Origin: a virus
Strand: one strand, 5' to 3'
Length of the DNA: 38,092 nt
Virus record (IMG/VR): IMGVR_UViG_3300009074_000008
Location: 1-38,092 of that record
Shown here in pieces: positions 16,465 through 32,576 of the stretch (its first letter is position 1; each line of letters starts with the position of its first letter). The translations under genes and the position numbers were made by a program. Below the pieces are notes generated by a model. It made no database searches, was not told the DNA's origin, and worked only from the letters and a program-made list of their open reading frames with translations.

Positions 16465-16522
16465 AGATACAATAATATTTGCCGAGATAATTAACCATAA
16501 AACTACCATATTACATATCAAA

Positions 16523-18892
16523 TTAGGTGATTAATATTGAACCATATACTCCACCATCGTAACTATAGTCATTACCAACACCGGTTGCAGTTGGTGTCAC
16601 CGTATTACCGGCGACAAGTATGGGAGTAAAATCCGTCGCGAAGTCAGCCGGTGTACCGTAGTTGGTATCTATCGTACCGAAAGAAGCCATCTCTATCGCT
16701 CCAGACGTTCCATCAGATGGTGTACTAATTACCGCCGGTGAAGGCATGTATATATGCCCATTACCGTAAACCCTAACCCCAGCTGTTATGTTGTTTGTAA
16801 TATTCACATTCGAAATCTTAGCGTAGCTATTACGTCTTACAGATATTACAGCATCAGTGGTACCGTCCATGCCACAGAAGTCAGCAGTAACGTTAATCGA
16901 ATCATTTTCACCAAAGGATGAATGATGCCTTATCTCTATTCCATGGTTTTGAATCTTAAATAAATCAATATTATTAATCTCACAAAATGAATTATAAATA
17001 TCTACTCCCTCATTACACCACACGATAGTCGCACCAGGATTCGTACTAGATCTAAATAGGGATCTACCACTTGCATAGAAACCAATGCGTGAGCACCAGG
17101 CTGCAGCTACTTGAGGACATCTAATATCAGAACCAGACTCAGCAGCGATACCGTCCCTAAATCTAAAGAACGTGCAGCCCTGACAGTCAATATGAGCACC
17201 TTCGTCTGCGAATGCACCGTCTTGATTAGTACCAGCGGATCCAATAAACAGGCAGTTTCTAAAAATTAATGTTTTACCACTACCGGCTCTTAATCCTGGA
17301 TCGATAGTGTTCGTTTCTATTACCACTGGATATTTACTCCGTAACATAGCCTCATCAGCAACTATATCACCGGTACCTGTTGAAAAGTCAGAAGTAATTG
17401 GGAAGCTACTAGGCTCAGCAGCAGCATCAAACGGCTTATAGAAAATTCTTTCACCGTGAGGATGTCCAAATATAGAGAATTGATTCGTATAAGTACCTGG
17501 CCTAATTAGAACTTGTACTGTAATATTATGAGCAATATCAAAATGTGAAAGATAACGGTTAGCATCTGCAGGAGTAGCAAAATCATCACCGACACCACCT
17601 ACGGTAATTGTAAGATTGTCATTAATAATCTCCTTAACGTGCCATATTTTGGTAGAGTCTTTAAAAGATAACTGCCTATAGGCATCAGGATCAGCCTCTG
17701 TCCAAGTATAGAAGCCATTAGTAATCATGGCACTTTCTGCTGCGTTAGTATCAGCCTGTACTCCTAAATCTGTTACTGCAGTTTGATTCTCTTGCCATGT
17801 ACCAACACCATTTGCATCAGTAGTAAGAACATAGCCATTAGTTGCGCCAGTTGACATTTTAAAGCCGGCTTCAATATCGAGAGTAGGTACATATACAGTA
17901 TTTGCATCAAATGATGACAATCCAACACCTCCGAGAATTACCGATCTATTATGGCCTACGCTCATGACAGCATTAGTTGCTCCTACTATAGCGGAGTAGT
18001 TACTATTATTAACACTACCACTACCACCAATTATTGATGAATATTGGCCGTTAGATAAATTACCACTACCACCAGCTGCTAATGCTGCAGTATTAGTGGC
18101 GGATAGGTTGCCACCGCCAACGACTGTAGAGAAGGATGCTAGTGCTTTACTATTACTACCTCCTAAGATCTCACTATCATCTCCAGTAGCTTCATTATTA
18201 CTACCTCCTAAAACAATCGATCGTTTACCAGAAGCGAGGCCATTTAAACCGCCGATTGATACAGCATAGTTATTTGTAGCTGAAAGGCTAAGACCACCTA
18301 TGGCAACAGAACCAGCCGCAGTCGCAACAGGGCCAAGTGTATTACCAGCAGTAACGATCCTACCTACACTAATATCGTTGAGAGTTGCTGATCCGTTGTC
18401 TGTGACTGACTCGACAGCATTAGCTGTATTATCCCAGTTAGTGGCGCTGTTTGATTGTACAACACTAGATGTATCATCCCATGTAGCACTAGTAGACTGT
18501 AGTGTAGTTACAGGTGTATCATCATATGGATCTGTATGTGCATCCCAAGAAGCGCTATTAGCAGTTACAGTTGTAAACGTACTAGTCCAGTTAGCACTGC
18601 TTGAGTTAAGGGTTGTTAGAGTTTCAAAGTCACCACTACCTGCAGATACGTCAACCCACTGTTGCGTGTTATCCTCATCATTAAGATAGTAAAACAATAC
18701 ACCTGTACTAGTATCAAACCACAAGTCACCGATACGAGGATTGTTCGGTGGTGTATCTTGACCTGGAATTATTTCTGTACCGCCTTTTACAGCTTCCCAT
18801 GCTTGTTTGACATCGTTCCACCGCCACGTCTTTGAGCCTGTTACAAACTGTTCACCTGGTTGCGGGTTGTCTGGAAAATTAATTGCTGCCAT
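16523..18892 (-). CDS. Tail fibre/tailspike: anchor, YadA-like beta-roll and beta-helix
   Basis: A 789-residue protein built of modules. Residues 1-35 are the shared anchor (INFPDNPQPGE, then TWRW). Residues 46-82 form a GDLWFDTSTGVLFYY module ending in QQWV. Residues 95-160 hold W-repeats. Residues about 194-325 contain repeated SIIGGSG or SIVLGGS units spaced 12-16 residues, the head-type beta-roll of YadA-family trimeric adhesins. From about 380 onward there is a parallel beta-helix, with LIRPGTYTNQF and many short Cys-rich turns, closely similar in order to the neighbouring fibre at 22207-23985. The C-terminus is short and has no recognised tip. A TATAAATA octamer 5 nt before the ATG lies in a duplicated intergenic segment. 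Confidence 0.85.
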   Translation of the reverse strand: MAAINFPDNPQPGEQFVTGSKTWRWNDVKQAWEAVKGGTEIIPGQDTPPNNPRIGDLWFDTSTGVLFYYLNDEDNTQQWVDVSAGSGDFETLTTLNSSSANWTSTFTTVTANSASWDAHTDPYDDTPVTTLQSTSATWDDTSSVVQSNSATNWDNTANAVESVTDNGSATLNDISVGRIVTAGNTLGPVATAAGSVAIGGLSLSATNNYAVSIGGLNGLASGKRSIVLGGSNNEATGDDSEILGGSNSKALASFSTVVGGGNLSATNTAALAAGGSGNLSNGQYSSIIGGSGSVNNSNYSAIVGATNAVMSVGHNRSVILGGVGLSSFDANTVYVPTLDIEAGFKMSTGATNGYVLTTDANGVGTWQENQTAVTDLGVQADTNAAESAMITNGFYTWTEADPDAYRQLSFKDSTKIWHVKEIINDNLTITVGGVGDDFATPADANRYLSHFDIAHNITVQVLIRPGTYTNQFSIFGHPHGERIFYKPFDAAAEPSSFPITSDFSTGTGDIVADEAMLRSKYPVVIETNTIDPGLRAGSGKTLIFRNCLFIGSAGTNQDGAFADEGAHIDCQGCTFFRFRDGIAAESGSDIRCPQVAAAWCSRIGFYASGRSLFRSSTNPGATIVWCNEGVDIYNSFCEINNIDLFKIQNHGIEIRHHSSFGENDSINVTADFCGMDGTTDAVISVRRNSYAKISNVNITNNITAGVRVYGNGHIYMPSPAVISTPSDGTSGAIEMASFGTIDTNYGTPADFATDFTPILVAGNTVTPTATGVGNDYSYDGGVYGSILIT

Positions 18893-18945
18893 ACCTATAT
18901 TTATACTATGTAGATAGTATTTTAATCTCTTTTATATAGAAATTA
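18889..18945 (-). repeat. Duplicated intergenic segment, copy 1
   Basis: 57 bp from the start codon of one fibre gene to the stop codon of the gene upstream, matching 22109-22165 with two mismatches. It includes the late octamer and a small inverted repeat, ATACTA, 6 nt, TAGTAT. Confidence 0.9.
18898..18905 (-). promoter_or_regulatory. T4-type late promoter octamer (TATAAATA)
   Basis: Perfect TATAAATA, 5 nt (TAGGT), ATG of the beta-roll/beta-helix fibre; part of a duplicated intergenic segment. Confidence 0.8.
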
Positions 18946-21348
18946 ATATTCCGTAATTTCTATACGAGCAGTAACATCACGCTCAGCGCCGGCCACCTCA
19001 GTATATGGAAATGCAGTAATCTTACGAAGGTTTGTATCTATTTTTATAACCGGCTTTGTTGAGCTACTGTTTGCGTCGCTAGGTATCTTAGTAAAGTTAT
19101 AAACATTATCACCAGTGAGTAGCGTCTCACTCATACCAAACATCTGATTATATTGAGGTGTTTGACCGGAGTTCTGCATGCCAGTACCTATTATAATACC
19201 ATTCACCCAATCTATTGAAAAGGTAAAATCAAAAAATCCTTCCTCGGTAGTGCTACTACCATTTTCTGAACCAACTGTGACAAGTACCTTCAATTCTGTT
19301 TTGATAGACGTTGAACCAGCAGCCTTAAAATTAGCATATGCAGTAAATACTCCTCCCCAGTTGTTGAAGTGTGTATTTCCACTGTAACTATCCCAACAAG
19401 CATCTAACACATTATTACTCGAGACCTCTGTGGTTGGAGTAATTGAGGTAGACTCAGATTCAGATGAGCCACTATCCTCTACACTACCAATAGCTAAGAA
19501 TGTTCTAGGTATACTACTAGAAGCAGCCGTCCCGTTAATAGTATCACACGTAATATTACCACCAGATATTTGAACTCTAGCGCCAAACTTAGCTCCATAC
19601 CATACCTCCGTGCCTAACTCATTAACATTTCCAAACCATTGAATCTCTTTATCAATATCATCAGCGTATGTACCGGTACCAGTAAAGTTAATATAGCTAC
19701 CAGTAGTTTCAAAGTCAGAGTCAAAAAAGCAACTGGTAACTGTGAGTCCCTTGACTGTTACATCAACACCGGAAGCGTTTTCAACATCAATAGCATCACT
19801 GTTTTGTACTTGATTCCAAGTACAGGCTGTAAAGGTGTTTTGATATTTAGTATCTGCAATAGTAACAGTAGTACCAGTGAAGATACAACCGATAAATGTT
19901 GTCCGTACATTTCCTACTCTAACATAACCTTCTCCAGATCCGGGGTTAGTAATACCCTGACTTAAAAAGTTACACCCTGTAAATACGTTGTCAATAGATC
20001 CGCTATAAATATTAGCAGTAAATCCTCCCTCCCGTAAAAGACAGTTTGTTATATTATTGTAATCTGAATTACCTTCTATTTGAATGCAATTACCAGTACG
20101 GGATGTATCTAGTTCATAACTAGCTTCCCCTATTCCCCATTTTGAAACTGTACAGTTAGAGACTACTTGATAATTACCAGTCCAAAGTTTTATACCATAG
20201 TTCTCACCGCCTGCATTCTCACCAAAATGATGTATCTTGCAATTAATAATTGTATTTCCATAACCTCGTGAGAGTATGCCACAAGTTAAACCATCTGCTA
20301 AGTCAGCAGACAGTCCTCCGTCAATGTGAACGCTGTCAACAACTGCACCGTCAGAAGCGGTATTTAAAGTTAGTACGGCATTGTTCCATGTAGCATCTAC
20401 AGATTCGATAGCTTTTAAAGTTCCGTTCTGAAATCGTATTGATTTCGATATATTAAGTCCTCCACCAATACCAATCTCTGGCTTAATTGCGTAATAACCA
20501 CCCGCAAGGTCAACCGTTACTTTACTTGCGCCAAGTACCTTACCAGACTCATTATCATCTACAATTAAACTACTAGCAGCGTCAATAGCGGCTTGAATAG
20601 CAGCGCGATCATCAGTAGCACCATCACCTATAGTACCATAGTCACGAACATCGATTATTGTTTTCGCACCAACATAATCTTCGACGTAATCTTCAATGCT
20701 TTGTGATGTAGCTAAAGAAGTAACACTAGCGTTGTTAGCAATATCATCGATGATCTCGGTAGCGGATAGTGTTGGCTGGCTATTAAACTGTAGAGCCGTT
20801 CCCGTCGCAACACCGTTTAAAATTTGGTAACTATCATTAAACTTAGCATCCATCCAAGCGAGATTGCCTTCTCCAGATGTATTACCAATCCATTGAATTT
20901 TCTTTTCTACATCCGAAACATAACTACCAGCACCGTTTACTAGAAACTCTATAATTTCAGATCGTCGTCCGTTAAATCTATTTGAAGAAACAATAAGACC
21001 ACCGCAATTATAGTCTGGTTGATTGGTATTAATCTCAATAAAATTATTAGCAGGATCTGCAGTCACGTCAGTATAGTTTTTAAACAGACAGCTATTAATA
21101 GTTAGTGACTCAACCGGGTCATATAACTGGTCATCGTTAAGAGTAACATTACCACCTACAAACGTACAACCGTTTAGGTTATTATCACTCCCACCTTCGA
21201 TATATACATTAACCTTTCCAGCTGTATCATCCGAACCACCTTGGTTGAATGTGCAATTAGATACGACATGCTCTGCTCCGTTAATATATAGTGGATATAG
21301 AGCCGTATCACCTTTACAGTCAATTAACTTATTCTGAAAGCCTTCCAT
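18943..21348 (-). CDS. Body of a frameshifted tailspike (second beta-helix and C-terminal tip)
   Basis: This 801-residue reading frame is the distal part of a tailspike gene that begins at 22112. Its first ATG at 21348 is not a real start: the same frame stays open upstream to 21726 and continues the beta-helix without a break, and there is no promoter or ribosome binding site at 21348. The protein has the end of one beta-helix, then a second pectate-lyase-type helix starting with DVRDYGTIGDGATDDRAAIQ (about 230 residues in). Each helix ends in a similar segment (KKIQWIGNTSGEGN and KEIQWFGNVNELGT). The last 190 residues are a beta-rich tip starting RTFLAIGSV. Polysaccharide binding or cleavage is the likely role of such tailspikes. 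Confidence 0.8.
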   Translation of the reverse strand: MEGFQNKLIDCKGDTALYPLYINGAEHVVSNCTFNQGGSDDTAGKVNVYIEGGSDNNLNGCTFVGGNVTLNDDQLYDPVESLTINSCLFKNYTDVTADPANNFIEINTNQPDYNCGGLIVSSNRFNGRRSEIIEFLVNGAGSYVSDVEKKIQWIGNTSGEGNLAWMDAKFNDSYQILNGVATGTALQFNSQPTLSATEIIDDIANNASVTSLATSQSIEDYVEDYVGAKTIIDVRDYGTIGDGATDDRAAIQAAIDAASSLIVDDNESGKVLGASKVTVDLAGGYYAIKPEIGIGGGLNISKSIRFQNGTLKAIESVDATWNNAVLTLNTASDGAVVDSVHIDGGLSADLADGLTCGILSRGYGNTIINCKIHHFGENAGGENYGIKLWTGNYQVVSNCTVSKWGIGEASYELDTSRTGNCIQIEGNSDYNNITNCLLREGGFTANIYSGSIDNVFTGCNFLSQGITNPGSGEGYVRVGNVRTTFIGCIFTGTTVTIADTKYQNTFTACTWNQVQNSDAIDVENASGVDVTVKGLTVTSCFFDSDFETTGSYINFTGTGTYADDIDKEIQWFGNVNELGTEVWYGAKFGARVQISGGNITCDTINGTAASSSIPRTFLAIGSVEDSGSSESESTSITPTTEVSSNNVLDACWDSYSGNTHFNNWGGVFTAYANFKAAGSTSIKTELKVLVTVGSENGSSTTEEGFFDFTFSIDWVNGIIIGTGMQNSGQTPQYNQMFGMSETLLTGDNVYNFTKIPSDANSSSTKPVIKIDTNLRKITAFPYTEVAGAERDVTARIEITEY

Positions 21349-21695
21349 TGAAAAGGATCGGGCTGTTCGTAAACTACTATACTCTCTACCCTGCTCAGTA
21401 AACAGCCATTCGTCAAAATCACACTTCTTTATAACACAACCCTTATTGGACTGTGGTGATGGTGCTGATTCGTCACCAATCCTGAGACCGTAAAGGGAAA
21501 AGTGGATACCTCTACAATTCGTTACGGTAACACGATTACATAAAATATGTACAAGGTTAGCATGACGTGTAAATGATCCTGGTGTACCTACAACGTCTTC
21601 CGTAATACCACCGTCAAAATTAATATCTATAACTTCACTCTCTTCAGCACCGGTGGTAAGTGTTAGTATAAAGTCACCTGTAAAACCAGGTAAGG

Positions 21696-22112
21696 CTAAT
21701 AATCTACCATTAGTAAATCTAAGTTTTTATTTATATTGAGTGTTGAGCCGACAGCGTACGTTTTACCGTCTAGATTAACTTCAATTGGCCGGTCATCAAA
21801 ATATACAGTTGGGTCTGTGTCTAGAGTACCAGCATGGGTGATTGCGGCTTGTATCTCTGCTTGATCGTCTTGTACTCCGTCACCAGCAGCTCCAAAATCT
21901 AATACACTAATAACCGTACGTAATTTGTCTTGTAATGTAGTATCAACCGCTCCAACACCATCAGGTGTATAAGCTATAGAAGCTGCATCAATATCTACGT
22001 TAGACAGAGATACACTATTCCAGGTACCGCTGGTACTATCATATCTCCAGCTCCTGTTATTTTGTGTATATATATATCCTGGTGTTGGTGAACTTGGAAA
22101 ATTGATAGCCAT
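21696..22112 (-). CDS. N-terminal part of the frameshifted tailspike (anchor and start of beta-helix)
   Basis: A 138-residue frame that ends early. Residues 1-35 are the shared anchor (INFPSSPTPGYIYTQ, then SWRY). A pectate-lyase-type opening follows (VLDFGAAGDGVQDDQAEIQ, about 70-88). Codons 123-130 (GSTLNINKN) lead into the hydrophobic strand that in paralogues continues as RFxNG. Here the frame instead reads LDLLMVDY and stops. One base before or in codon 131 is missing relative to the frame used by the rest of the gene. The real gene runs 22112 to 18943 and would encode 1,056 residues. A TATAAATA octamer stands 5 nt before the ATG. Confidence 0.8.
   Translation of the reverse strand: MAINFPSSPTPGYIYTQNNRSWRYDSTSGTWNSVSLSNVDIDAASIAYTPDGVGAVDTTLQDKLRTVISVLDFGAAGDGVQDDQAEIQAAITHAGTLDTDPTVYFDDRPIEVNLDGKTYAVGSTLNINKNLDLLMVDY
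21720..21730 (-). other. Frameshift junction in the tailspike gene (A5 run)
   Basis: On the minus strand the coding sequence reads AAT AAA AAC TTA GAT. Adding one A to the run of five gives AAT AAA AAA CTT AGA TTT, that is N-K-K-L-R-F, followed by TNGRLLALPGF. The paralogous helices have SKSIRFQNG (same gene, second copy) and NRKIKFGNG (gene at 24036-26381) at this place, so the continuation is clearly the ancestral frame. Either the run lost one A or the shift is made good during expression. The body frame has a TAA at 21729-21727 and is open from 21726 on. Confidence 0.85.
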
Positions 22113-22165
22113 ACATATATTTATACTACGTAGATAGTATTTTAATCTCTTTTATATAGAAATTA
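22109..22165 (-). repeat. Duplicated intergenic segment, copy 2
   Basis: Second copy of the segment at 18889-18945. The TAA that is the stop codon of the upstream gene in copy 1 is kept here at 22163-22165, but now ends a 14-codon remnant instead of the annotated upstream gene. Confidence 0.9.
22118..22125 (-). promoter_or_regulatory. T4-type late promoter octamer (TATAAATA)
   Basis: Perfect TATAAATA, 5 nt (TATGT), ATG of the frameshifted tailspike; in the second copy of the duplicated intergenic segment. Confidence 0.8.
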
Positions 22166-22206
22166 TCTACATATACCACTAGCACCAAAGACTGGATAGT
22201 TAGAGA

Positions 22207-23985
22207 TCAGTATCCGAATGCCGTCCAGCTATAAACCCCAGCAGCGTTCGTATTCATCGTCCAACCAGTTTCACTTAGTGCAGTATATGACAGATTACTC
22301 CCTGAATCATTTATGAGAGATCTTTGTCCTTGTAAATTTAAACAAGCATTAGGGAATGCTGTAGGGAAGGTAAAACTCTGGGTACTGGTAGTGGCAGTTA
22401 CTTGTCCAAACTTCATAATGAAACCATTAGGAAACGTTATGCTTTCTTCACCAGCGTAAGTTGCTGGAGTAAAGTCTCCTGAACCTATCCAACTAGCACT
22501 ATTAGCACTTACAGTTGTATATGTGCTATCCCAATTTTCAATACTTTGAATAGGTTGACTGTTATCTTTAATAATTGATCCATCAGTATCAATAACATTT
22601 AGTGGAGAACTATAGGTTGTTGATCCTAAAATATTATTTACATCATTAGTAAAACTAACAGCTCCACCATCCTCAACCTCTATATCTTCAAAACCAACAC
22701 CTGACCCACTAAGTGAAATAGGATCAAATAAGTATAAATTACTATCAGCATATGATCTAATATTCCACCTGTCATTATCTATACAAGTTAAATCACCTAT
22801 TCTTGCTACACTAGATTGTGAGAGAAAAATACCAGCGTCACAGTTTTTAATTATATTACCAGATAAGGTACCTGCTCTAGGTGATAACAGAGTACCATGA
22901 TCGGTTATACTTATTGCTTCACTCAGTGTTGCAAGAGGTCCTTTACCACACTCTTCTATGACGGATTCATACCATGTTCCCATACTATTTGTAGCTACTT
23001 GAAGACCATGATTATCACACTTATAAATTGTATTACGCCTTCCTAGTAATTGTGATGTTGAATTCACTTTTATACCAGCTCCACCTGACCCGTCGACGGC
23101 ATCTTCAGTTATATATGAAACACTGGTATCAAATATACGTAAATAACTACCATTAATTGCTTGAATACCGTTTCCAAAGCCAAAAAAGCTACAACCTATG
23201 CTGTAAAATTTACCTTGATCGTTTACATTAACAGCTCTAGTAATTGATTCTGTGTCTTTATAGATCAAAATATCCTCTATTCTGGCTGTACCAAATGGTA
23301 GACTTAATGCATTAATTTGGTTAGAAGGACTAGTAAACTTGAACTTAACTGAATATTTACCTTTAAGCATGTTTAGATCATCTGCTGACACACCAGTAAA
23401 ATCTGTACTTTTAGGATATGTAACACTCGGTGAACCATCAAAAGGTCCGATAAATATATTGTCTCCATTATCGTGCGAAATATCTAAAGAACTATTAAAT
23501 TCATATTCACCAGGCCTAATTTGAATATTAATTACTGCACTATCTCTCATCTTAAGATATTGCACATATTGAATTGCAGTTTTAAAACTAGTAAAATGAT
23601 CACCAGGCTGATCACCAACAATAAATGTCTCTCCATGAGAAAATTGTGATACATGAAATATTACAGTATCTCTCTTACATGACAGCATACTGCATGCTGG
23701 GTTTCCATCCAAAGTTTTACACCATGTATAGAAGCCATCGTAAGTCATAGCTGCTTCAGCACTACTATCATTGTTAAATGTACCTAGATCCTTTACCGTC
23801 CAATCACCGCTAGCACTCTGAACTGTTGTATACGCTGAGTTCCAGTCAGCTGATGAAGTCGCGACAATAGTATCACCACCATCACCTGCACTTTCCCATG
23901 AAACTCCTGTCCACCTCCAACTCTTATCGTTTTGTGTATGTATTTCACCAACTGTAGTTGGTACTGGGAAATCTAACTTAGCCAT
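22207..23985 (-). CDS. Tailspike with beta-helix and gp53-like C-terminal knob
   Basis: A 592-residue protein. Residues 1-35 are the shared anchor (LDFPVPTTVGE, then SWRW). W-repeats follow (about 45-65: ADWNSAYTTVQSASGDW). A right-handed beta-helix covers about 120-450 and contains IQIRPGEYEF and repeated short turns; its layout matches the helix of the gene at 16523-18892. A second W-repeat (ENWDSTYTTVSANSASW) links to the last 75 residues, which carry ITFPNGFIMKFGQV and end VYSWTAFGY, the pattern of the gp53-like C-terminal knob of many tail fibres (NG, a strand, FPxAFPN, final W-x-A-x-GY). A CATAAATA octamer lies 5 nt before the ATG. The 41 bases after the stop hold what may be the end of an older gene. 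Confidence 0.85.
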   Translation of the reverse strand: MAKLDFPVPTTVGEIHTQNDKSWRWTGVSWESAGDGGDTIVATSSADWNSAYTTVQSASGDWTVKDLGTFNNDSSAEAAMTYDGFYTWCKTLDGNPACSMLSCKRDTVIFHVSQFSHGETFIVGDQPGDHFTSFKTAIQYVQYLKMRDSAVINIQIRPGEYEFNSSLDISHDNGDNIFIGPFDGSPSVTYPKSTDFTGVSADDLNMLKGKYSVKFKFTSPSNQINALSLPFGTARIEDILIYKDTESITRAVNVNDQGKFYSIGCSFFGFGNGIQAINGSYLRIFDTSVSYITEDAVDGSGGAGIKVNSTSQLLGRRNTIYKCDNHGLQVATNSMGTWYESVIEECGKGPLATLSEAISITDHGTLLSPRAGTLSGNIIKNCDAGIFLSQSSVARIGDLTCIDNDRWNIRSYADSNLYLFDPISLSGSGVGFEDIEVEDGGAVSFTNDVNNILGSTTYSSPLNVIDTDGSIIKDNSQPIQSIENWDSTYTTVSANSASWIGSGDFTPATYAGEESITFPNGFIMKFGQVTATTSTQSFTFPTAFPNACLNLQGQRSLINDSGSNLSYTALSETGWTMNTNAAGVYSWTAFGY

Positions 23986-24035: not shown

Positions 24036-26381
24036 CTATACTGGTGTTACAGATGATGATCCGTCTGCGATATACCAAACATCGGTTGCTGACGCTCCAG
24101 CTGCAACCATGATCCTGTTGTTAGTAGTATCAAACACCATAAGTCCTTGACGCTTACGTGTGGTATTAATATCTGCTGTAGCGTCTAGAAGGTTAACTTC
24201 AGTGTCCATTACCAGTGTGATCTCTTGCTGCCCATTATTACGTACACGCGCAACTTCACTAGCGTTTGCCGCACTACCATCTGGCGTGAGGTAAGTAACC
24301 ATACGGAATGGTGTATCAAAGGATGCATGATCACCATCAGCTTCAAACTGAATATATCCACCAGAGTTGGATGCTGCATTGTTTCCGAAGTCATTACCTC
24401 TATCTGCAACACCTCCGAATCTGACAACACTATCACCTTCAACTAAGTAGTCATCACCGAACGTGCCAATAGTTGTGCCTCTGGACTTAGCACCAACAAA
24501 CATTACAGGGTCGGTACCTGTACCCCATCGCGACGCTGTAAATCCAGTTGATCTATCATCGTGAGCGGAGTAGGTTGTTAATCTATTGGCAATTTCTATG
24601 GCGTAGTCGTTTGTATTAGGAGATACAACCAGTTTATCACCATCCCAATATAAACCTTCTGTAATCTGGTAGTTGTCTGGTAGCTCACCCCCATCTCGTA
24701 GACTACCGGTAACCGCAATACTATCTACACCAGTCCATGAGCCAACACCTTCTGCTGTCTTGGTAAACTGTGGTGATACATTTTCAAAGATGCACCCGAC
24801 AACTACAACACCCTCAACAGTCTTGCCTGCCTCTGTTGCTTTGAAGCGGATAGCAGTATCAACACTAGTCGATGGTAACCCCTGCTGAACTGAGCTATCA
24901 ACGAACTTGCATCCAGTAAATGAGTTCTTGAAACCGTTCTCAATTAACACTTCACCATTATCGAAGTAGCAACCTGTAAACATATTGCCTACTGCGTAAG
25001 TGCCTGCCACTGTGTCCGTCTTTAACCAGACACATACATGACCCACGCCCTCGGTAGGTGCAGTTACAAAATGGCAGTTGTGCCAAAGATTAGCAGATCC
25101 TTTATCACTCTTCATCGGATACAAACCATGTGAACAATTAATGTTTGAGAATAAGCAGTCGTTAGTATCAACACTTAAACAAGTTGATGTCCTGTAGGTA
25201 TAATCCTCAATACCATTATTGGTTGGAACTGCATTTGTATCTGCATTTGTCCACTCGTTAAGGATCATGTTTTCAAACCTACCACCTTGAACGCTCACAA
25301 TGTAGAGACCGAACTCCCTCATGTGGATCATGTTGATGTTGGTGAACAAGCATCGCTGACACTGAGTAGCGTAGATACCATTTGATCTCTTGCTGCTGTC
25401 AGAGACATCTAATCCGCAGTCGATGTCGAGGTCGTGAATGATTAAGCGTTCAGTAGCGAAGCTGGAGACATAGATAACACATGAGTCTGTGCCGTCACCA
25501 ACAGGAAAGTCAGTAGTAACAATTAAGTTACCGTTGCCGAACTTGATCTTGCGGTTGATGGTAAGTGTTGATGTCACCCTGTAAAGTAATCCACCCAAGT
25601 CTACTTGGACGTATCCAGCACCAACATCAGAAAATTCAGTATCACACAGTGACTCGGCGTGATCAATGGCTGCTTGTATTGCTGCTGTGTCGTCCGTAGT
25701 TCCGTCACCCACTGCACCAAAGTCTGCTGGCGTAATACGCTCACGTAGCTTGGCTCGGACTGTGGTTACTTGCGCGCCAGTACCAGCCGGAGTGTATGAT
25801 ACAGCGGATGCATCCGCAGCAGTTGCAACTGTTGATACCCATTGGCTCGAGCCACCGACTTCAACGTAATAAACATACAAATTACCGTCACCAGTATTAA
25901 ACCACAAATCACCGTCTGATGGGGTAGATGGTACAGTCTCGGAAGTTGTTACACTGGCACCACTACCTATAGATGCGATAGATGGTGTAACCGTTACCCA
26001 TTGCAGCGTAGTATTATCTGCGTAATATATATACAATACAGCTGTATTAGTATTAAACCAAAGATCACCTGCACTTGGATCTGCTGGTGCAGTTTCTTGA
26101 GATACAACATTAGCTCCTCCACCCTCAGCATTCGAACTAGTTGATACTGTTACCCACTGATCAGTATTACCATCACCATAGAAAACTGACAATACAGCAG
26201 TATTATCATTGAACCAAAGATCACCAATACTCGGATTTAGAGGAGGAGTTTCAGAAGTCGCAATAACAGTACCTTCACCTACACCTAAAGTAGTCCATGA
26301 ATTGCCAGACCACTTCCATGTTTTTAATCCCGTATTATAAACTTGACCTACTGATGGGTTTGCTGGAAAATTTAAAGCCAT
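24036..26381 (-). CDS. Tailspike with three GDLWF modules and a pectate-lyase-type beta-helix
   Basis: A 781-residue protein. The anchor (LNFPANPSVGQVY, then TWKW) occupies 1-32. Three GDLWF modules in tandem (about 40-80, 90-135, 145-185) each end in QWV. A pectate-lyase-type helix opens at about 213 with TPADFGAVGDGTTDDTAAIQ and runs to about 560, with many short Cys- and Asn-rich turns (for example LFSNINCSHG, MFTGCYFDNG). The C-terminal 150 residues have mixed beta content and a common fibre ending (GLMVFDTTNNRIMVA, then WYIADGSS). The role is probably host-surface glycan recognition or degradation; the active-site residues cannot be placed by eye. The octamer ACTAAATA is 7 nt before the ATG, slightly further than at most genes. 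Confidence 0.85.
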   Translation of the reverse strand: MALNFPANPSVGQVYNTGLKTWKWSGNSWTTLGVGEGTVIATSETPPLNPSIGDLWFNDNTAVLSVFYGDGNTDQWVTVSTSSNAEGGGANVVSQETAPADPSAGDLWFNTNTAVLYIYYADNTTLQWVTVTPSIASIGSGASVTTSETVPSTPSDGDLWFNTGDGNLYVYYVEVGGSSQWVSTVATAADASAVSYTPAGTGAQVTTVRAKLRERITPADFGAVGDGTTDDTAAIQAAIDHAESLCDTEFSDVGAGYVQVDLGGLLYRVTSTLTINRKIKFGNGNLIVTTDFPVGDGTDSCVIYVSSFATERLIIHDLDIDCGLDVSDSSKRSNGIYATQCQRCLFTNINMIHMREFGLYIVSVQGGRFENMILNEWTNADTNAVPTNNGIEDYTYRTSTCLSVDTNDCLFSNINCSHGLYPMKSDKGSANLWHNCHFVTAPTEGVGHVCVWLKTDTVAGTYAVGNMFTGCYFDNGEVLIENGFKNSFTGCKFVDSSVQQGLPSTSVDTAIRFKATEAGKTVEGVVVVGCIFENVSPQFTKTAEGVGSWTGVDSIAVTGSLRDGGELPDNYQITEGLYWDGDKLVVSPNTNDYAIEIANRLTTYSAHDDRSTGFTASRWGTGTDPVMFVGAKSRGTTIGTFGDDYLVEGDSVVRFGGVADRGNDFGNNAASNSGGYIQFEADGDHASFDTPFRMVTYLTPDGSAANASEVARVRNNGQQEITLVMDTEVNLLDATADINTTRKRQGLMVFDTTNNRIMVAAGASATDVWYIADGSSSVTPV

Positions 26382-29987: not shown

Positions 29988-31349
29988 TTAAGCTATTGCG
30001 TTACTTACATAGAGGTAATTAAATTCGCCATCATAATACCAGCCTATTGTTATTCTACTTGAGATGCTATTTGTTAATGTTGCTATATCAGCAAGATCAC
30101 CAGCCATAACAAGTGATGGATATACATCGGCTGGAAAGGTCCACCCACCGCCATCAGAAGATACTATAACCATACCAGATTCTCCTGGTACCGCGTTGGA
30201 TATAGTGAATGATGTTACGTGACTTGTTAGTGTTGTTAATGCGCTTTCACCTAAGCCTACATCTAAATCTAGTGCACTATTTGAGGTTACTATTGTCTGT
30301 TGAGTATTATCCCAAGATGCACTATTAGCACTTACCGTACTATATGTTGAATCCCATGTAGCGCTAGTTGATTGTAAAAGCGTATCATCATAACCTATGA
30401 CCCCTTCTGGTAAGTTCCAATGCCCAGTACCGTCTGCATCTGTACATGTTAGGACTTTTCCAACTGCTTCGTTACCATCTACTAGTCTAAGACCGCCTAG
30501 AGCTTTAAAGTTTATCGAGTTAGCTTGTACTGATGAGAAGGCAGTTGTGGTAGTACTATCACTAAAGATGAAGACACCATCGTGCGATGCGCTAGCGGTT
30601 GAACCAACAGCAAAGGATTTATTAGCTCGTATACTATTATTAGTACCACCGGGGATAGTGTTAGCATATCCTATAATACTATTACTATCACCACCACCTA
30701 TACTATTAGTATAGCCTATAATATAACTATTGCTGCCGCCGCCTATAACATTATTAAATCCCATAGGGTCGAACGTAGCGTTATTATATCCCCCACCTAT
30801 TGCATCTTGAGCACCGTTTGCCAGATTACTATTACCACCAGCAATAACAGAATTAGATCCGCTTGCTACTTGTGTTTCTGTCTCTCTACTAGTTTGTAGA
30901 TCTACACTACCTTCACCACGACTCAATCCAGCAACCTGACCCTCGTCTGTAGCTCTTATATTAAGAGTATTTCCTAGTAATGAATCATCTTCGACCCAAA
31001 TAACTCCGGAACCCTGTATAGTGCCACCTATACTATCATTAAACCAATCAGCACTATTAGCGCTTACGGTTGTGTATGTTGACTCCCAGTTAGCACTAGG
31101 CGTTATAAGCCATGTATCATCATAATCTACACCAAACCAATCAGCACTATTAGCGCTTACGGTTGTGTATGTTGACTCCCAGTCACCTGATAGTTCAGCT
31201 AATTCACTATCAGCTAATAACGCACCAGATAAATAATTAGCGAGTAGATCTAAAGAGCCGGCTTTAGTAGTACCATCTTGTACCATTACTATTGTTTCGT
31301 CTCCGGTATAAAAATTACTACCAGGTAGTTCAGAAATCTTTTTCGCCAT
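29988..31349 (-). CDS. Tail fibre with YadA-like beta-roll and W-repeats
   Basis: A 453-residue protein. The N-terminus (KKISELPGSNFYTGDETIVM) is a type seen at the start of several phage fibres and differs from the tailspike anchor. Two identical W-repeats (56-71 and 88-102) are encoded by a perfect 50-bp direct duplication. Residues 163-250 contain SVIAGGNSNLANG-type units about 12-15 residues apart, the YadA-like head fold. A third W-repeat precedes the last 85 residues, a beta-rich tip ending WYYDGEFNYLYVSNAIA that matches the tip of the coiled-coil fibre. An ACTAAATA octamer lies 5 nt before the ATG. It is the first gene of the fibre block. Confidence 0.8.
   Translation of the reverse strand: MAKKISELPGSNFYTGDETIVMVQDGTTKAGSLDLLANYLSGALLADSELAELSGDWESTYTTVSANSADWFGVDYDDTWLITPSANWESTYTTVSANSADWFNDSIGGTIQGSGVIWVEDDSLLGNTLNIRATDEGQVAGLSRGEGSVDLQTSRETETQVASGSNSVIAGGNSNLANGAQDAIGGGYNNATFDPMGFNNVIGGGSNSYIIGYTNSIGGGDSNSIIGYANTIPGGTNNSIRANKSFAVGSTASASHDGVFIFSDSTTTTAFSSVQANSINFKALGGLRLVDGNEAVGKVLTCTDADGTGHWNLPEGVIGYDDTLLQSTSATWDSTYSTVSANSASWDNTQQTIVTSNSALDLDVGLGESALTTLTSHVTSFTISNAVPGESGMVIVSSDGGGWTFPADVYPSLVMAGDLADIATLTNSISSRITIGWYYDGEFNYLYVSNAIA
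31041..31090 (-). repeat. Perfect 50-bp direct repeat in a fibre gene, copy 1
   Basis: Identical over 50 bp to 31134-31183. On the coding strand it encodes the W-repeat WESTYTTVSANSADWF. Confidence 0.95.
31134..31183 (-). repeat. Perfect 50-bp direct repeat in a fibre gene, copy 2
   Basis: Identical over 50 bp to 31041-31090. The 43 bp between the copies encode the DYDD-type linker. Confidence 0.95.
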
Positions 31350-32537: not shown

Positions 32538-32576
32538 TTGATTTTAATAATTCATATATTAAAATAATATATATAT

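Follow-up and report, generated by a model that had tools for sequence, protein, structure and literature searches.

The tailspike gene at 22112-18943, on the minus strand, cannot be read from end to end. Its frame is broken at a run of five A's (A5; 21724-21728), and the question is whether this break is a phase switch in a host-range gene, the decay of that gene, or an error in the sequence. The gene lies in a 38,092-base IMG/VR virus record, which was analyzed over its whole length and is called the window here. The window carries genes for a T4-type terminase and tail sheath and, on its minus strand, several long tail genes in a row. The best match of the tail sheath was Pelagibacter phage HTVC008M, at 42.5% identity, and marine T4-like phages (cyanomyoviruses and HTVC008M) have gp17- and gp18-type genes as are found here. 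In this uncultured T4-like phage, the split gene is one of at least four adjacent spike or fiber genes that bear an anchor motif.

The frame that starts at 22112 ends after 138 residues at a stop at 21696, with NINKNLDLLMVDY as its C-terminal end. This 138-amino-acid open reading frame (ORF; 21696 to 22112, minus strand) contains a virion-anchor-like N terminus (MAINFPSSPTPG...W) and the start of a first pectate-lyase-like helix (helix 1). An early strand of helix 1 is interrupted at its start by the break, which leaves a stub with the anchor and almost none of the helix. In the other frame, the sequence from 21726 reads KLRFTNG and stays open for 927 codons, without a stop until the one at 18943. 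This body (18943 to 21726, minus strand) holds the remainder of helix 1, helix 2, and a C-terminal domain. The earliest ATG, GTG, or TTG in the body frame is the ATG at 21348, which comes 125 open codons after the break (21349 to 21723, minus strand). Given the stop density of the wrong frames of the split gene, the probability that 125 codons would be open by accident is ~1e-6, and a chance open frame was rejected on that basis. An earlier note, made from the letters of this DNA, had placed the break at the A5 run, described these 125 codons as fully open, and matched the rejoined peptide both to SKSIRFQNG, in the gene's second helix, and to NRKIKFGNG, in the paralogue at 24036. We confirmed the position of the break and the open codons, and the peptide match is real. 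Thus, the split-gene observation is correct in all of the details that could be checked.

The sole close relative covering the break locus is a sister contig, IMGVR_UViG_3300025876_000020 (66,844 bases). Its match across the break extends for 2,637 bases at 98.8% identity and has a single gap, at the A-run, which is A6 in the sister and A5 in the window. The sister's spike gene is whole, forming one uninterrupted ORF of 1,009 amino acids, which bears out the proposal that one extra A rejoins the frame. The window has a disabling change where its close relative is intact. In the alignment of the whole window with the sister, ~35 kb was compared, mostly at 98 to 99.9% identity, and the A-run slip was the only frame-changing indel in coding sequence. 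Homopolymer errors are therefore not widespread in the window. All of its other long genes, also claimed in the earlier note to be intact, are in frame against the sister contig. Of the remaining length differences, those clustered near 1546-1587 and the repeat-unit difference within the gene at 29988 are in frame, and two others are intergenic gaps (one at 16511 and one in an AT repeat at 32567); a gap pair at 24422-24428 is an alignment artifact of an equal-length replacement. The repeat-unit difference (gene 29988-31349; 453 versus 484 amino acids, a difference of 31 residues) apparently corresponds to a single in-frame unit of a repeat of the WESTYTTVSANSADW type, which several more of the window's tail genes contain. 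When viral contigs were searched for further copies of the break locus, only the sister contig was found, and two more relatives (L013 and L014) do not extend to that locus. The spike region had no nucleotide matches in a collection of 50,697 phage records, the spike body had only weak protein matches and no clear homologues in the characterized-phage collection, and an Rfam search found nothing.

The 138-amino-acid part matched PF12708 (pectate-lyase-like) above the cutoff (E 2.9e-9), as well as several PHROG tail spike families, and within the body, helix 2 matched PF12708 again, more weakly and below the cutoff. With a start of the form DFGAxGDGxxDD and a beta-helix body, the two halves are one pectate-lyase-like spike. 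The structure model of helix 1 was of low confidence (mean pLDDT 52, pTM 0.59). With this model, foldseek returned tailspikes and polysaccharide lyases or epimerases, including Sf6 and CBA120 TSP2 and TSP3, at identities of only ~10 to 17%. Like the multi-spike tails of Sf6 and CBA120 (PMC3184105), the locus has several adjacent spike genes whose products share an N-terminal anchor, have right-handed beta-helix bodies, and diverge in their distal parts, a likeness limited by the low identity and the low-confidence model. Unlike those spikes, the ones here have a short FPxxPxxG...W motif as their anchor, and the split gene has two helices in tandem. When the two beta-helix domains of the split spike (18943-22112) were compared in the sister's gene, the part that aligned was ~32% identical, and each domain was also similar to the paralogue at 24036. 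Judged by this likeness, the tandem helices appear to be an internal duplication. The anchor-like motif, MAxxFPxxPxxG...W, is common to the genes starting at 26381, 23985, 22112, and 18892, so that the split gene shares it with at least three other genes (24036, 22207, and 16523). We infer that the motif anchors the spike to the virion.

Our best reading of the break, which we hold to be slightly better than an even bet, is a recent and isolated one-base deletion, an ordinary loss-of-function allele by which one of several spikes was lost. Replication slippage would have taken one A from the short A6 run, either in the phage lineage or in the assembled variant. The product would be a stub of 138 residues, with the virion anchor still present but the receptor-binding beta-helix nearly gone, and the large body, without a usable start of its own, would not be made. 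We infer that the virus itself carries the deletion, that the stub is nonfunctional, and that the phage withstands the loss since sister spikes remain. Redundancy of the spikes is plausible because at least three other genes carry the same anchor motif. The loss of a spike would be expected to narrow or shift the host range. Any real loss must be very recent because the body is otherwise stop-free over its 927 codons. Of the note's suggestion of decay, then, the part that stands is a recent loss, given that the 5' part of the gene is nearly identical to that of the sister and that selection on the body may be mildly relaxed (in an unpolarized comparison); the otherwise undamaged body argues against old decay.

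A body free of other stops is also the appearance expected from an error. In that case, the virus would carry the longer run, its spike would be intact, and one base would have been dropped from the contig in consensus calling or assembly; we regard this as a substantial, albeit lesser, possibility. The record is an environmental assembly, single-base homopolymer differences are a classic type of error, and the gene is undamaged elsewhere, with 927 open codons, and is intact in the relative. Additionally, the sister has an 8-nucleotide (nt) oddity of its own in a spike gene, which may be mutation or may be assembly noise reaching these genes. However, no other frame-changing indel was found in ~35 kb, including at A6, A7, A8, and T7 runs, and A6 is short for most short-read chemistries. 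General assembly noise was rejected because the window has no other coding frame break. On balance, we judge an error to be somewhat less likely than a real and recent deletion. If the slip is real, it is a small natural case in which one of two sister T4-like phages with multiple spikes has lost a receptor-binding protein that the other retains, and it would be useful for linking spikes to hosts. If it is an error, it is a caution against calling single homopolymer indels in metagenome contigs phase variation.

Phase variation itself, in which spike production in the phage population would be switched by toggling of the A-run between 5 and 6, had been put forward in the earlier note; it was not supported, and we consider it very unlikely. 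In its favor, the spike is a host-range gene product, and each of the two states is seen in one of two close relatives. The Campylobacter poly-G and poly-A contingency loci offer a likeness, a one-base homopolymer change in a surface-recognition gene, but the tract here is shorter, is made of ordinary Asn-Lys-Lys codons, and is matched by runs of equal length that are stable, and nothing in the contigs points to a mixture of run lengths in a population. Among the 15 aligned coding A/T runs of at least 6, 13 had the same length in the two contigs, 1 contained a substitution and was not scored for length, and 1, the run at the break, had changed. All 13 of the other scored runs (6 to 8) were thus length stable, which argues that runs of such length are not hypermutable in these phages. 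The run at the break, of 5 to 6 only, is accordingly not a hypermutable simple-sequence tract; the intact relative has only A6, and the viral collection searched contained no second copy with A5. In published discussion, variable A-tracts have at least 7 A's (PMC10877375).

Two further readings would keep the body in use. A minority of full-length spike could arise if, at AATAAAAAC, the ribosome shifted to the -1 frame or RNA polymerase slipped, and here the needed direction is indeed -1, the site is A rich, and a weak downstream hairpin is possible. However, the zero frame AAT AAA AAC presents U AAA AAC, which breaks the X XXY YYZ rule. On such a heptamer there is no tandem re-pairing, and the P-site tRNA would need to re-pair on UAA. 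The downstream fold was ordinary (z of -1.28, with 26 of 200 shuffles as good), and no special signal for ribosomal or transcriptional slippage was seen at the break. Moreover, recoding is not a conserved feature because the sister encodes the spike in one frame. A programmed -1 ribosomal frameshift was rejected, there being no valid heptamer and no strong downstream structure, and recoding as a whole appears highly improbable. It is barely credible that the body is made as its own protein from the ATG at 21348 (21346 to 21348, minus strand) to form a split, two-protein spike. An 801-amino-acid ORF does begin there, but the 125 codons that precede it are conserved helix 1 coding sequence, and the product would be without the virion anchor. 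This first ATG of the body frame is also a poor candidate start because it is preceded neither by a Shine-Dalgarno-like motif nor by the TAAATA motif that marks many starts of the phage group.

We compared substitutions in the spike body with those in other genes. The pN/pS of the body was 0.56, versus 0.17 for the other genes pooled (nonsynonymous-to-synonymous Fisher p 0.005; unpolarized, with no outgroup), and was not different from that of the neighboring tail genes (0.37, p 0.41). The 125 codons between the break and the ATG at 21348 had 8 nonsynonymous differences from the sister and no synonymous ones. Beyond the A-run slip, the body has no further disabling change. Selection on the spike body may thus be mildly relaxed, in the lineage of the window or in that of the sister. 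In spike gene 22207-23985 (window 22489-23985), there were 15 nonsynonymous and 2 synonymous differences from the sister, for a pN/pS of ~2 on small numbers; positive selection or local recombination in that gene is possible.

The sister has a broken spike as well. The intact paralogous tailspike of the window, of 781 amino acids (24036 to 26381, minus strand), has a sister homologue in which 8 bases, GTTGTCAG, are replaced by AAGTAACC at equal length, with a stop at codon 653 (L010 11598-13556 of the sister contig, G001). Both contigs have the letters of AAGTAACC ~125 nt away on the opposite strand (window 24293-24300), a pattern that fits an inverted template switch, and an assembly chimera is possible. 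The two sister phages therefore have one broken spike each, and not the same one. That the sister lost another spike by a different event suggests that such losses occur in this group.

Segments of three adjacent spike or fiber genes were too divergent to align with the sister: 18946-19531 in the split spike, 22168-22488 at the end of the gene at 22207, and 17902-18350 in the middle of the gene at 16523. Their flanks are ~95 to 99% identical to the sister. The first of these (minus strand) is a C-terminal part of the tailspike that is wholly different from that of the sister, as in a domain swap. Near-identical promoter-and-anchor repeats precede 22112 and 18892 (~91% identical), and two of the block ends lie there. 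These ends are the trace expected from exchange through the repeats, which suggests a modular swap of spike tips. It is conceivable, and in our judgment unlikely, that the sister phages repeatedly switch hosts by breaking different spikes (here the one starting at 22112, in the sister the paralogue starting at 26381) and that recombination through the promoter-and-anchor repeats later restores them. If so, loss and gene conversion, and not a tract switch, would make up a reversible system for host range. With a different spike broken in the sister and with C termini swapped, the spike cluster stands out as a host-range locus that changes fast.

The start codon of the split gene is preceded, at a distance of 5 nt, by the T4-late-promoter-like sequence TATAAATA (22118 to 22125, minus strand). 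Late-promoter-like motifs stand 5 nt before many start codons, and in the window such motifs precede the starts 22112, 18892, 23985, 26381, 29431, 31349, and 13366. Motifs of this kind, NATAAATA, are common to the window and marine T4-like phages (PMC2984593). Across the sister contig, TAAATA was found within 30 nt before the ATG in 23 of 50 ORFs (~1 expected), mostly with exactly 5 nt between, and a Shine-Dalgarno-like motif was found in only 3 of the 50. Were these motifs to act as T4-type late promoters, transcription would begin (+1) at the start codon or beside it, which would suggest leaderless late mRNAs or a Shine-Dalgarno-poor host.
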